This document shows positions 15,741 to 19,777 of a DNA stretch of 20,204 nt, in pieces; position 1 is the first letter of the stretch; every line of letters starts with the position of its first letter. A model generated the notes under the pieces. The model did not search any database and was not told the DNA's origin. It saw nothing but the letters and a program-made list of their open reading frames with translations. Both the position numbers and the translations under genes were made by a program. This stretch comes from a virus, in the IMG/VR virus record IMGVR_UViG_3300009027_000049, positions 1 through 20,204 of that record. One strand, 5' to 3'.

Positions 15741-16355
15741 GAATGTATTAACTTGCATGCGCAAGCCTGAGCCGCCAAACTTGGCCTTTTCATTGTTACT
15801 ATTAATACCATCAATGGCTGCTTGGTACAACGATGCCCATACACCTGTTCGCTGGTCATCAACTAAATAAGGCGCTGAGTGCATCAATGCACCATACAAA
15901 TATGCATCAGGGAAGTATTGCAAAATCCAGTTAGACGTTGCGCTGTCGCTAAGCGGCGTTGTGCGTGCGTAATAATAAAGCTCACCTGTGTATGTGCTGT
16001 CTGGCGTAGGCCAAACTTCAAGCTGACCTGCAATCACAGAGTAATACTTTGGCCTGCCTTTCGTATCCGCGCCACCTCTACGATAAGACTGAAGCGCTAA
16101 TGGCGTAACTAGCTCAATAGGACGCTCATCTACATCTAGGTGAAAGCGCACAGCTTCCATAAAACCATCGGGTAGCTGTGTGTAGCGCGCATCAATGCTT
16201 GCCGTGCTGCGCTCTTCCATACGCCAGTGGCGCACTTTGCGATCCATGTCAGCCTCTGCAAGACTGATGAAATCAGGAATAACACTCGTAAGATCATCGC
16301 GGTTCAGCCAGTTGGCGATTGCGGTCTTTAGTTCTGCGTAGGTTGTAATAGCCAT
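15738..16355 (-). CDS. Head-tail adaptor-like protein
   Basis: A 205-aa protein from the ATG at 16355; a GTG two codons earlier is possible, but the ATG makes the TAATG overlap used elsewhere in this operon. The start AITTYAELKTAIANWLNRDD, then IPDFISLAEADMDRKVRHW, RYTQLPDGFMEAVRFHLD and, near the end, PDAYLYGALMHSAPYL, is the pattern of the adaptor proteins (SU10-type, related in role to T7 gp11). These form the ring joining the portal to the nozzle and fibres. In those phages this ring closes the filled head and holds the tail fibres. The assignment is by motif memory and gene context. The small size, helical ends and central beta section agree. Confidence 0.7.
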   Translation of the reverse strand: MAITTYAELKTAIANWLNRDDLTSVIPDFISLAEADMDRKVRHWRMEERSTASIDARYTQLPDGFMEAVRFHLDVDERPIELVTPLALQSYRRGGADTKGRPKYYSVIAGQLEVWPTPDSTYTGELYYYARTTPLSDSATSNWILQYFPDAYLYGALMHSAPYLVDDQRTGVWASLYQAAIDGINSNNEKAKFGGSGLRMQVNTF

Positions 16356-16615
16356 TACCACTTAACCTTATCTGCCCAATATGCGGCGCTCATCTTGCCC
16401 TTGGCAATGTTTTTAGCGTGCCTTGCTTTAAATGACTTAGCACGCTTTGTCATAGTCTTATCGCCCGTCTTGCCCTGCTGACCAAAGCGAATTGTTTTAA
16501 CCTTATCGCCCTCTTTAGCCACAACTACGTGTGACTTGGTTTTATGGCTTGGAGTACGCTTGGGTTTATTATAACCCGATACTCCAGCGCGGGCGAGGCG
16601 GGGGTCTTTAGGCAT
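16355..16615 (-). CDS. Small strongly basic conserved phage protein
   Basis: An 86-aa protein, very rich in Lys, Arg and His: MPKDPRLARAGVSGYNKPKR, then HVVVAKEGDKVKTIRFGQQG and ARHAKNIAKGKMSAAYWADK, ending VKW. From memory, this protein and its IRFGQQG and KMSAAYWADKVKW blocks are widespread in marine cyanophages and pelagiphages, with no experimental function known to me. The charge suggests nucleic-acid contact, and the position between terminase-side genes and the adaptor suggests a role in the virion or packaging. Both points are inference. Its start overlaps the preceding stop as TAATG, and its stop overlaps the next start the same way. Confidence 0.75.
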   Translation of the reverse strand: MPKDPRLARAGVSGYNKPKRTPSHKTKSHVVVAKEGDKVKTIRFGQQGKTGDKTMTKRAKSFKARHAKNIAKGKMSAAYWADKVKW

Positions 16616-17418
16616 TAGTAAAGGCTTCCACCGTTTTGAACATATGTGCTATACACATCCATCAAAGTCTGATTGTCAGCGTTATTAACAAAGTCTGGGT
16701 CAATCTGCCTTAGATCATCAATCATCGACGCATACAAATTTGGACTAAATCCACCAACGCTCGTGCCTCTACCAGAATAAACCATCTCAGGTTGTACTGG
16801 CATACCTACGCTCCCGCGACCAGAATATCTCATCCCAGTCCTGTCATTCATGCCTACATCCCCACGACCAGAATACTGCATGCCGCCTAGTGAACCCTCT
16901 GCTGTGCCTCTGCCAGAATGCTGCATAGCCTCGCGAGGCATACCTAAATTCCCGCGACCAGAGTAGCGCATAGGCCCAACGCCACCAAACGGATCAAGAC
17001 CCATAGCTGCCTCATTAGCAGCTTGAGCAGCAAGCAAACCCTGCGGTGATCCAAGCATGTCTGGGGGTGTAACTGTTGGCCCAGTACCGCCAAACGGGCC
17101 AAGCCCCATAGCAGCTTCCGCATCAGCCTGAGAGGCTTCACGTAAAACTGGCTTGGGCGAGCTATCTCTATCTCTTGAAGATGTGCGTGCGGCAATATCC
17201 TCAACGCGCTGCTGCGCCTCAAGCGGTTTAGCAAAAAGATTACCCAGCATAGACAGCAAGCCACCGCCCTCAAACTTATCCCCAGATGCGCCAGCGCCAC
17301 CACCGTCTAGCATGTCCATCAAGCCAGTAAAGCGCTTGCCTGTGCCATTTCTGCCACCGCCTAACGCATTCAACGCGCCTAAACCAGCGAGTAATCCTAG
17401 TGCTGCTCCTGCTTTCAT
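16615..17418 (-). CDS. Repeat-bearing virion-type protein with DGGGAGASGD and YSGRG motifs
   Basis: A 267-aa protein of unknown function. Residues 1-22 are hydrophobic and Gly/Ala/Leu-rich (GAALGLLAGLGALNALGGG). Residues 30-47 carry FTGLMDMLDGGGAGASGD, shared with the virion protein encoded at 5675-6298. The middle has two copies of EAAMGL(G/D)PFGG (101 and 136). Residues 150-218 hold five YSGRG-type repeats (RYSGRG, QHSGRG, QYSGRG, RYSGRG, VYSGRG), each after Met. The C-terminus (MIDDLRQIDPDFVNNADNQT) looks folded and helical. The shared motif and low complexity suggest a virion or ejected protein. The ATG lies inside the stop of the 40-aa gene upstream (ATGA), with AAGG as a modest ribosome-binding site. 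Confidence 0.6.
   Translation of the reverse strand: MKAGAALGLLAGLGALNALGGGRNGTGKRFTGLMDMLDGGGAGASGDKFEGGGLLSMLGNLFAKPLEAQQRVEDIAARTSSRDRDSSPKPVLREASQADAEAAMGLGPFGGTGPTVTPPDMLGSPQGLLAAQAANEAAMGLDPFGGVGPMRYSGRGNLGMPREAMQHSGRGTAEGSLGGMQYSGRGDVGMNDRTGMRYSGRGSVGMPVQPEMVYSGRGTSVGGFSPNLYASMIDDLRQIDPDFVNNADNQTLMDVYSTYVQNGGSLY
16765..16971 (-). repeat. Five YSGRG coding repeats
   Basis: Five units encoding (R/Q/V)(Y/H)SGRG, 13-18 residues apart, within the 267-aa gene. At DNA level they share a core like CGACCAGAATA on the plus strand, with some synonymous change, which shows diverged tandem duplication. Confidence 0.7.
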
Positions 17419-17537
17419 TTCTTTTTACCTTTTTTGCTTTTGCTCAGCTTTTTCAAGTCTGCGCCAGTAATTTTCTTGCGTGGTGGAGCCACTGCGGCTA
17501 ACTTTTTTTGCTTTGGGCTATATTTAGAATACGGCAT
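17415..17537 (-). CDS. 40-aa lysine-rich small protein
   Basis: A short open frame of 40 aa, MPYSKYSPKQKKLAAVAPPR followed by KKITGADLKKLSKSKKGKKK. The KYSPKQKKLA and KITGADLKKL parts look like a small conserved protein I remember from marine phages, so I take it as real. Its start overlaps the stop of the 63-aa gene (TAATG) and its TGA overlaps the start of the 267-aa gene (ATGA). This double linkage also supports it. Thirteen of 40 residues are Lys, suggesting nucleic-acid binding (inference). The run of seven A bases at codons 10-12 forms the heptamer A AAA AAG, a classic minus-one slip site, but the product it would give ends 26 codons later and looks like nothing known. Confidence 0.65.
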   Translation of the reverse strand: MPYSKYSPKQKKLAAVAPPRKKITGADLKKLSKSKKGKKK

Positions 17538-17728
17538 TAGGACTTCACCTGCTTTTCCCATTCATAACACTTAACCTGCTTGATTGTATACGTTGGATAT
17601 TTCATCTGCAAAGATGGAACTCCGTTCTGCATAAAATCAGCAATGCATTCATTCTCATCGACATACGCAGGGCCGCCGACTGCAAAGCAGTAATTTTGAG
17701 CGCACAAGAGAACAAACGCGGTAAACAT
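17537..17728 (-). CDS. 63-aa putative exported protein
   Basis: Residues 1-16 (MFTAFVLLCAQNYCFA) form a hydrophobic segment ending in a signal-peptidase-like site before VGG, although the usual basic residue after Met is missing. The mature part has two Cys (28 and 54) that could form one disulfide, within ENECIADFMQNGVPSLQM and TYTIKQVKCYEWEK. No family recognised. It is probably sent to the periplasm or anchored in the inner membrane. It begins four bases after the 11-aa frame's stop and ends in TAATG with the 40-aa gene. A role in envelope change during infection is possible but not shown. Confidence 0.6.
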   Translation of the reverse strand: MFTAFVLLCAQNYCFAVGGPAYVDENECIADFMQNGVPSLQMKYPTYTIKQVKCYEWEKQVKS

Positions 17729-17732
17729 TACA

Positions 17733-17768
17733 TCACTTCTTTACTTTCTTCTTAGCAGCTTTAGCCAT
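17733..17768 (-). CDS. 11-aa lysine-rich micro-frame
   Basis: ATG follows directly on the stop of the 26-aa gene (TAAATG) and the frame encodes MAKAAKKKVKK, then TGA. It is too short for statistics. In favour are the exact junction, the Lys-rich composition like the neighbouring 40-aa and 86-aa proteins, and the otherwise complete use of this cassette for coding. It may simply be a translational bridge that carries ribosomes to the 63-aa gene. Confidence 0.3.
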   Translation of the reverse strand: MAKAAKKKVKK

Positions 17769-17849
17769 TTACTTGCCATACTTCTTTTTCATGCACATAC
17801 CTGCACGCTTACACGCTGCGGGTGTGGGGCAACCTTTACATGGTTTCAT
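17769..17849 (-). CDS. 26-aa four-cysteine microprotein
   Basis: Encodes MKPCKGCPTPAACKRAGMCM followed by KKKYGK. Cysteines at 4, 7, 13 and 19 (C-x2-C-x5-C-x5-C) with basic residues between and after suggest a tiny zinc-binding or disulfide-held fold. The start is preceded by AAAGGAGTTGGCT, one of the best Shine-Dalgarno sequences in the window, in the 31-base gap after the large terminase gene. A ribosome-binding site this good before so short a frame argues that it is translated. The next micro-frame begins at once (TAAATG). I recall similar CxxC microproteins in marine phage genomes but not a function. Confidence 0.6.
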   Translation of the reverse strand: MKPCKGCPTPAACKRAGMCMKKKYGK

Positions 17850-17880
17850 AGCCAACTCCTTTTGCTGCAAACGTATCACA

Positions 17881-19287
17881 TTACGCTATTCCACGCAAAT
17901 TCCTTCTAATTTCGCCACGCCAGCTAGAAAACGACCCAGATAACGCCGTTGCAGCATCCGAAGCCATCGTCAAACAAAGCGCATCAGCCAAGTCAGGAGA
18001 GGCTAAGCCACGCTTGCGCATCTCATCCTTACTCTCAGCTTTCATCTTTCCTGAACTGGTAAAGCTATAGCGAATGCTGGTTAGCTCTGCGATAAGCTGG
18101 TCATTCTTCGGCAGCTTGCAAGAACGATCCTCAAGCCAACCCTTCGTCTTAAACCAAAGCTCGCTCCGCAGATTAAGATAGGTATCGCCCATAGACGGGC
18201 TTTCAGCAACATTCACGCCGCGCACAGGCAGGCCAATCTCACGCAGGCGGTCCACCACACCTGAGCCTACGCCAATGCTATCGACAAGAATTTGCGTTGG
18301 CTGTCTGCTAGGCGGTAACGCCTCATACTCAGCAACAACCCTACCCACAGTCTGCATCAAGTCCAACCCAGACCAAGCCCTAAGCTCAGTCACAATCGGA
18401 CCCTGACGCTTACACAGCGCAGTCTTATCCTGCCCAAAGCGCGCTACGTCCAGACCCCAGACCGCCTTGGTATCCTCATCAATCTGCACATCGCGGTGCG
18501 TGGCATTCTCCACAAGATGAAACGGGATAATCGTGTCATCGTCAGCAAGCGGAAACTCACCCAGCACACGAATGCGAAACGCATTGCTCTCCTCGCCATA
18601 CCTGAGCCGCATCTCATCGACAAACTCATCGCTCACCAGAGGGCTATCCACGCATGACCAACGGCGTGTCCACCAGCTATCCGCCATGCGCGTCTGACTT
18701 TCGAAAAACGTACCACTGCTCCGCGTGGGGTTGCTCAACATAATCGTCGTCGCGTTATGACCCGACATAGAGCCAGCCGCAGCCTCAAATACCTGCTCAG
18801 GTACACCAGAGGCTTCATCTACAACGAGCATAACATGCTCAGAGTGAACCCCAGCCAGCGCTTCAGGCGTTTCTGCGCGTGACGTTCTAGCCGATATAAA
18901 CATCTCTGCAGGCGCAGAAGTGTGCTCAACGCGATCCGATTTAACGTTAAGTATGCTCTGCAACCCTTCAGGCAACTCGTTTATCCAGCGCTTTAGCTCT
19001 GCAAATAAGGCATCAAAAAGCTGACTGCTGGTGGGCGCAGTTACAACAACTTTATTTGGGTAATGCATCAAAAAATACCATAGCATTGCCCATGATGCTG
19101 CTGTAGACTTACCAGTACCATGACCCGACCGAATGCTAATCTTGCGTTCGCCAGACGCAATCGCTTCCAGAAATTCTGCCTGATACGGCAATGGCTCTAC
19201 GCCAAGCACCTCTTGCACAAATAAAGCAGGCTTCTTGCCGTACCGCTCAACAAAGTCCAGCATTGCGCTGTGATTGTCGTCACTCAT
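17881..19287 (-). CDS. terL: Terminase large subunit
   Basis: A 468-aa packaging motor that translocates DNA into the prohead with ATP and cuts the concatemer. Numbered from the ATG at 19287, the ATPase part has Walker A SGHGTGKST at 54-62, Walker B MLVVDE at 153-158 with the catalytic Glu, and a coupling motif SNPTRSSG near 185-192. The RNase H-like nuclease part has the acidic residues expected for metal binding: LDVARFGQDKT (Asp 280), ILVDSIGVG (Asp 336) and SPDLADAL (Asp 432/435). Length is normal for the family. A TTG two codons earlier is possible, but AAGGTGA lies at the right distance from the ATG and much too close to the TTG. The start overlaps the small subunit's end by eight bases (ATGAGTGA). 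Confidence 0.95.
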   Translation of the reverse strand: MSDDNHSAMLDFVERYGKKPALFVQEVLGVEPLPYQAEFLEAIASGERKISIRSGHGTGKSTAASWAMLWYFLMHYPNKVVVTAPTSSQLFDALFAELKRWINELPEGLQSILNVKSDRVEHTSAPAEMFISARTSRAETPEALAGVHSEHVMLVVDEASGVPEQVFEAAAGSMSGHNATTIMLSNPTRSSGTFFESQTRMADSWWTRRWSCVDSPLVSDEFVDEMRLRYGEESNAFRIRVLGEFPLADDDTIIPFHLVENATHRDVQIDEDTKAVWGLDVARFGQDKTALCKRQGPIVTELRAWSGLDLMQTVGRVVAEYEALPPSRQPTQILVDSIGVGSGVVDRLREIGLPVRGVNVAESPSMGDTYLNLRSELWFKTKGWLEDRSCKLPKNDQLIAELTSIRYSFTSSGKMKAESKDEMRKRGLASPDLADALCLTMASDAATALSGSFSSWRGEIRRNLRGIA

Positions 19288-19777
19288 GGTCAATCACCTT
19301 GGCTTTCCGCAGCGCATCCAAATGCAAGTCACCAATGTTGATCTGAATGTTCTGCTGATTGCCGCTACCATAGCGCGCCTTGTTAAAACTGGCAGCAATA
19401 AAGTTGCGCTGGTGGGCTAAGCCCTTAGCAATGCCGATATCAACCTGACTGACATACTGCAGGTTTTTATCTACAGCTTCATTATCAGGATTGCGTGCAG
19501 CCGCCTTCTCATAAGCACGCTCTTCCTTCAACTCAACAAGCTCCTGAAGGGCAAGAGCAGCCTGCACATCAGCAACCTCAGCTTCAACCTCTTTTATCGC
19601 CTTGCCATACTCTTCGTTTTTCATCAGGTTGCGCTGCAAATAACCACGATCCAACCCAAGCTCTTTTGCAATCATTGGAATAGTTTTACCCGAAAGCAAT
19701 TCCTGCTGCAAAGCTTCAGGGCCACCCCTTCTATCAAGGGCTGCAAGAGCAGCTTTCAACTTAGGCTTACCAGCCAT
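19280..19777 (-). CDS. terS: Terminase small subunit
   Basis: A 165-aa protein just before the large terminase. The N-terminal part has a helix-turn-helix-like stretch (GKTIPMIAKELGLDRGYLQR, about residues 30-49) after a helical LKAALAALDRRGG. A long helical middle follows (EYGKAIKEVEAEVADVQAAL, then ELVELKEERAYEKAA), as in the oligomerisation part of small terminases, and a C-terminal part (GNQQNIQINIGDLHLDALRK) that would contact the large subunit. It recognises the packaging start site and regulates the motor. The start is fixed by TTAGGAGTTATGTATGG, with AGGAG six bases upstream. It is the first gene after the control region at 19778-20204. Confidence 0.88.
   Translation of the reverse strand: MAGKPKLKAALAALDRRGGPEALQQELLSGKTIPMIAKELGLDRGYLQRNLMKNEEYGKAIKEVEAEVADVQAALALQELVELKEERAYEKAAARNPDNEAVDKNLQYVSQVDIGIAKGLAHQRNFIAASFNKARYGSGNQQNIQINIGDLHLDALRKAKVIDHE

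Follow-up and report, generated by a model that had tools for sequence, protein, structure and literature searches.

The zinc knuckle of retroviral nucleocapsid proteins has the spacing CX2CX4HX4C. Iron-sulfur clusters can be ligated by four cysteines, or by three cysteines together with a glutamate or a histidine, and known cystine peptides are small and basic. Gene callers and family libraries readily overlook genes of less than 30 codons. Fremin et al. 2022, reportedly a study of small genes in global phage genomes, is taken to be the likeliest prior listing of the family described here, and is cited in PMC11364881. The family was not found named in the literature, in a search of a kind that could not establish absence from print.

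The window, i.e. the whole stretch of DNA that was analysed, comprises 20,204 bases and is a virus record. A gene of 26 codons plus TAA occupies positions 17769-17849 on its minus strand, and read from 17849 to 17769 it translates to MKPCKGCPTPAACKRAGMCMKKKYGK. The four cysteines are residues 4, 7, 13 and 19, corresponding to the spacing CX2CX5CX5C, and eight residues are Lys or Arg. The net charge is +8 and the pI 9.9, and the gene sits among other Lys-rich small genes. Direct reading places the Shine-Dalgarno-like site AAAGGAG at 17856-17862 of the same strand, 6 nt before the ATG, and sites resembling it also precede many of the homologues. The coordinates, the length, the Cys positions, the Lys/Arg count and the AAAGGAG site given in a preliminary description were all found to be correct on re-reading; the strand was absent from it.

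The gene is located in a packaging/virion module. The terminase large subunit (TerL; 17881-19293, minus strand; phrog_2 with E 5.5e-43, and Pfam Terminase_6N just above the cut-off) precedes the start of the microprotein by 31 nt, on the same strand. On the 3' side follow, in the same orientation, a 63-aa frame, a Lys-rich 48-aa frame, a 267-aa protein, an 86-aa relative of phrog_7595 and an SU10-type adaptor. Directly after the microprotein stop, an 11-codon frame MAKAAKKKVKK (17733-17768, minus strand) is, from comparison of the window with loci L003 and L026, probably the leftover tail of a partly deleted Lys-rich LYANI-type gene that is kept downstream in relatives. The 63-aa frame, MFTAFVLLCAQNYCFA (17537-17728, minus strand), has four Cys and a hydrophobic, signal-like start, and its sequence ends a longer frame overlapping the LYANI gene in L003 and L030. 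The 48-aa frame (17415-17561, minus strand; net charge +14) belongs to a run of small basic genes and recurs in relatives. The 267-aa protein (16615-17418, minus strand) contains five (Y/H)SGRG-type repeats and has no family match; its start, GGGAGxxGDKFEGGG, is like that of the gene in the same place in relatives. The 86-aa protein (16355-16615, minus strand) is without Cys in the window copy, and its relatives in L188 and L208 have the C-terminal sequence SYCARSGG...SANYWSRKAW and a final Cys.

The window frame belongs to a widespread, unnamed family of environmental phage microproteins. Scans with the window TerL and adaptor as queries were used to collect 80 loci each, with more found by both, and in many of the kept loci the core F-[KT]-P-C-x2-C-P-[TS]-P-x2-C-x3-G-x-C was present just 3' of TerL, with N- and C-termini that differ among members. 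A degenerate search of IMG/VR, derived from a 17-member alignment, gave at least 540 confirmed relatives among at least 599 stretches, the best 80 of which were kept; the IMG/VR counts are lower bounds, and some contigs are common to several scans. The same search of 84,980 species genomes gave 14 stretches, two of them confirmed (L237 and L238). L237 is a phage-like contig with a window-like TerL and, just after it, the core MAKTEYNAKTVKGFKPCKGCPTPSKCRAAGKCMGGK; the frames beyond look like portal, scaffold and capsid genes as named from reading alone. L238, an archaeal genome contig scoring 20.1 bits, is without the second half of the core and was taken as a chance match. With a profile of the relatives, 139 loci (98 distinct by DNA) scored at least 25 bits, followed by L238 and then by values of at most 12.9. 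The window protein fits the core [KT]PCx2CP[TS][PK]x2Cx3GxC, and is itself a row of the profile. In L003 (2020-2274, plus strand), and also in L026, the Cys core is extended at its C-terminus (to 84 aa in L003), so that the core can head a longer protein.

The window protein matched no Pfam, PHROGs or NCBIfam model at E values up to 10. Among 24 members, weak matches were obtained, three to Pfam and one to PHROGs, the best scores being 0.014 (DUF7630) and 0.11 (phrog_22813), for one member each. Searches with tblastn using four forms (26, 37, 51 and 22 aa) against 50,697 phage records gave no match to E 10, with a low-complexity filter that may hide Lys-rich matches, and the profile scored at most 8.2 bits in six whole TerL-similar records (Venkman, HTVC106P, P26218, MW202481, phiM5 and Greip) and three partial records; a cultured phage carrying the gene was thus not found in either set. 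A clearly selected family present in at least hundreds of environmental phage contigs is without a model in the three family libraries searched.

Six of the 80 TerL-selected loci are cut off too early to be judged. A member was found just after TerL in 46 of the 74 informative loci and none in the other 28, where TerL is kept, and the gene is therefore accessory and not essential to packaging in this group. On the TerL tree of the 74 loci, presence and absence require at least 5 changes, as compared to a mean of about 23 with shuffled labels, showing that the gene is inherited within clades. All four Cys are found in 45 of the 46 members, the exception being L030 with Cys4 replaced by Tyr. Loci without a member often fill the slot with other Lys-rich small genes (KGTYG, MAMKPR, KYSYGK and one that we take to be DUF6496-like, the sequence of which matches phrog_2423). 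The KGTYG and Cys peptides are encoded by two genes in L043 and by one fused frame in L049-L051. The preliminary description held that the Cys spacing should be invariant among homologues of a metal-binding protein, and that regions keeping the neighbouring genes and losing the Cys pattern would speak against the idea. Such regions do occur in one sense, i.e. the 28 loci with TerL and no member, some of them with a Cys-less Lys-rich peptide, and losses of a single Cys are also found. In the loci that do carry the gene, the Cys spacing hardly varies.

The reading that we prefer, and to which we assign somewhat less than an even chance, is that the window frame is a member of a family with a one-metal core and basic ends, made late and binding nucleic acid or the virion. 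The 16-residue core C-x2-C-P-x4-C-x3-G-x-C would fold round a single metal ion, most likely zinc, with the four Cys, or three Cys and a His in variants, as its ligands, and would be flanked by Lys/Arg-rich ends of variable length. The microprotein would be produced late, alongside the terminase and the head and tail genes, and would most likely bind nucleic acid (packaged DNA or RNA) or a part of the virion in a manner resembling zinc knuckles. Arguments for binding of nucleic acid or virion come from the charge, the position of the gene and the fusion of the core to a Lys-rich peptide; for DNA or RNA as the partner, only the charge argues.

A dedicated terminase accessory factor, with a metal-folded core that docks on TerL during packaging, was also considered and is unlikely. 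Among the 183 members with a locus TerL match, 155 follow TerL on its own strand at a distance of at most 400 nt, a number that is inflated by the many loci fetched with TerL. The nearest large upstream frame of 133 members (a redundant set, many of them TerL-selected) is a TerL of the window type in 99 cases and a second TerL type (phrog_2, E 1.3e-38) in 6, and the latter precedes members in L115, L125, L138 and L213. In contrast, the absence from 28 of the 74 TerL-selected loci speaks against a dedicated factor, as does the placement in other lineages: in L200-L203 the microprotein is found between an endolysin (phrog_315) and a gene with phage matches annotated as internal virion protein in several records, and in L292, L254, L245 and L270 it lies beyond the next large gene. 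Since members also adjoin other genes, such as the endolysin, the terminase is weakened as a dedicated partner. Ten proteins were scanned, comprising eight neighbours and two peptides from the slot. TerL and the endolysin gave clear matches to a named function, and the others matched weakly, matched unknown families or gave no match.

It is rather unlikely that the microprotein is a host-takeover peptide, inhibiting a host polymerase, nuclease or defence and sitting in the late module by happenstance. The patchy presence, the variable ends and the accessory character would suit such a role, but the gene is placed repeatedly among packaging and virion genes across lineages, and the core is nearly fixed while it is the ends that vary.

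The four cysteines look like a metal-binding site. Since the degenerate pattern contains Cys1 and Cys2, the DNA anchor PTPAACKR, which holds Cys3 only, was chosen for a further search of IMG/VR, and the 80 listed loci, of at least 119 stretches, were examined. Excluding 8 duplicates and one stretch at an edge left 71 distinct places, of which 3 were chance matches and 68 were members. Cys2 and Cys4 were found in all 68 of these listed members and Cys1 in 59, with Ile (5), His (3) or Pro (1) as replacements. Over all loci collected up to that point, and with one contig-cut member left out, 150 distinct members comprise 137 with four Cys, 6 ICCC, 3 HCCC, 3 PCCC and 1 CCCY; forms lacking several Cys would be missed in this tally, since the detection profile was built from four-Cys members. 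A His after Cys4 was observed in none of the 137 four-Cys members, in 5 of the 6 ICCC and 2 of the 3 PCCC members, and in none of the HCCC and CCCY members. Seven of the 12 members without Cys1 thus have a tail His, and the three HCCC members have a His at the Cys1 site instead. Counted by distinct protein, the tail His is present in 0 of 90 four-Cys forms, and a His at either place in 7 of 9 without Cys1. An N-terminal His is present in two four-Cys members, and the Cys-loss forms without His are L256 (PCCC), one ICCC sequence and L030 (CCCY).

The TerL tree of 110 members has the Cys1 losses in separate TerL clades, with 2 changes for ICCC, 1 for HCCC and 2 for PCCC. Loss of a Cys paired with acquisition of a His, in separate lineages, favours a metal site and disfavours two disulfides, to be read with the limits that the independent events are few, that members of one clade do not count as independent and that the gene may pass from one TerL background to another. 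The proposal of a phage-encoded mini zinc-binding peptide is partly supported: there is a real Cys4 phage family, and its Cys1 loss is paired with a new His, as would be expected of a metal ligand. Zinc is the putative metal, with comparative support, and the DNA, terminase or host protein that the preliminary description named are candidate partners. The natural changes from Cys to His provide a testable prediction on metal binding.

An iron-sulfur cluster or redox sensing by the four Cys, in place of structural zinc, is distinctly unlikely. Both four Cys and three Cys with Glu or His are among the general ligand sets for such clusters, and a Glu precedes the conserved, invariant Gly in 9 of 9 ICCC and HCCC members, as compared to 0 of the 141 others and 0 of the 138 members with Cys1. 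Against a cluster, the peptide is very short and the profile and fold searches gave no match to an iron-sulfur family; zinc is preferred over a cluster by analogy only.

Still less probable are two disulfides in a small cystine-stabilised peptide acting outside the cell or in the virion. The Cys count is even in 137 of the 150 distinct members, and the microprotein is small and basic as are known cystine peptides. However, no signal-like stretch is found in the 26 residues of the window microprotein, and 13 of the 150 members keep three Cys, 10 of these with an added His, which is unfit for paired disulfides.

The coding character of the frame was examined by shuffling and by codon analysis. 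The preliminary description regarded four Cys in 16 residues, together with eight Lys/Arg residues, as far from random. In 200 dinucleotide shuffles of the window, frames of 15-45 aa that start with ATG and have four Cys in a span of 16 residues occurred 5.79 times per shuffle, as compared to 6 observed, so the composition argument fails and the Cys count alone is no evidence. With a ribosome-binding site the shuffle mean was 0.225, the exact spacing CX2CX5CX5C had a mean of 0.02, and the exact spacing with a ribosome-binding site was not seen across the 200 shuffles. The non-randomness of the window frame comes from conservation across phages, not from composition. For the 18-codon core, 77 distinct DNA haplotypes gave a pN/pS of 0.23 in the coding frame (0.24 for 32 TerL-selected haplotypes), and both TGC and TGT are used at every Cys; the count of zero non-synonymous changes at Cys was set aside as circular because the pattern used to pick the core demands Cys. 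The microprotein codons are under purifying selection. A chance frame or conserved non-coding DNA, for which speak the short four-Cys frames common by chance in the window and the low ratio of 0.30 in one antisense frame (ascribed to shared third positions), was ruled out by the codon pattern and the conservation and retains hardly any probability, given the ratios of 1.54 and 1.96 in the other two sense frames, the use of both codons at each Cys and the joining of an identical core to unrelated ends.

The predicted structures are only moderately confident. AlphaFold2 models of relatives had a mean pLDDT of 66 (37 aa) and 77 (30 aa), the latter predicted as a loop with the CxxC followed by a short helix that would begin just past CxxCPT and carry Cys3. 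Foldseek gave no PDB fold match for either model, and the sole PDB profile match, Piwi-like protein 1 (11 residues, best E 0.11), was taken as chance. The only notable match in a viral fold library was A0A1B1IHV6, an uncharacterised protein of 45 aa from Skeletonema virus LDF-2015a, with E 0.034 for one model and E 0.049, 53% identity over 30 columns and a TM of 0.63 for the other.

Judged from these models, A0A1B1IHV6 is probably a true relative of the microprotein, compared here through the fold-library match only, with an E of 0.049 that is not significant alone; its source is an unclassified virus. The Lys-rich slot genes (phrog_2423, phrog_16028 and KGTYG) resemble the microprotein in being tiny, basic and located just after TerL in relatives, but are without the Cys core, to which KGTYG is fused in L049-L051. 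With the retroviral zinc knuckle the microprotein shares a very short, putatively metal-folded core that starts with CxxC, Lys/Arg flanks, a viral gene and, in some variants, three Cys and a His. It differs in its spacing, CX2CX5CX5C, seen with all four Cys in 137 of the 150 members, and in its origin from tailed dsDNA phages; the window protein departs from the CCHC spacing and gives no Pfam match, and there is no sequence match to the knuckle. The microprotein may work like a zinc knuckle, by analogy, but is not one by spacing. A further and doubtful extension is that this phage family of about 25-50 aa is a counterpart of the nucleocapsid zinc knuckles, with a one-metal core and Lys-rich arms, which would go with the packaged genome and occupy a post-TerL slot of interchangeable Lys-rich microproteins that are sometimes fused to the core. 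If borne in the virion, the microprotein would rank with the smallest metal-folded proteins of tailed phages that have a structural or genome-binding role.
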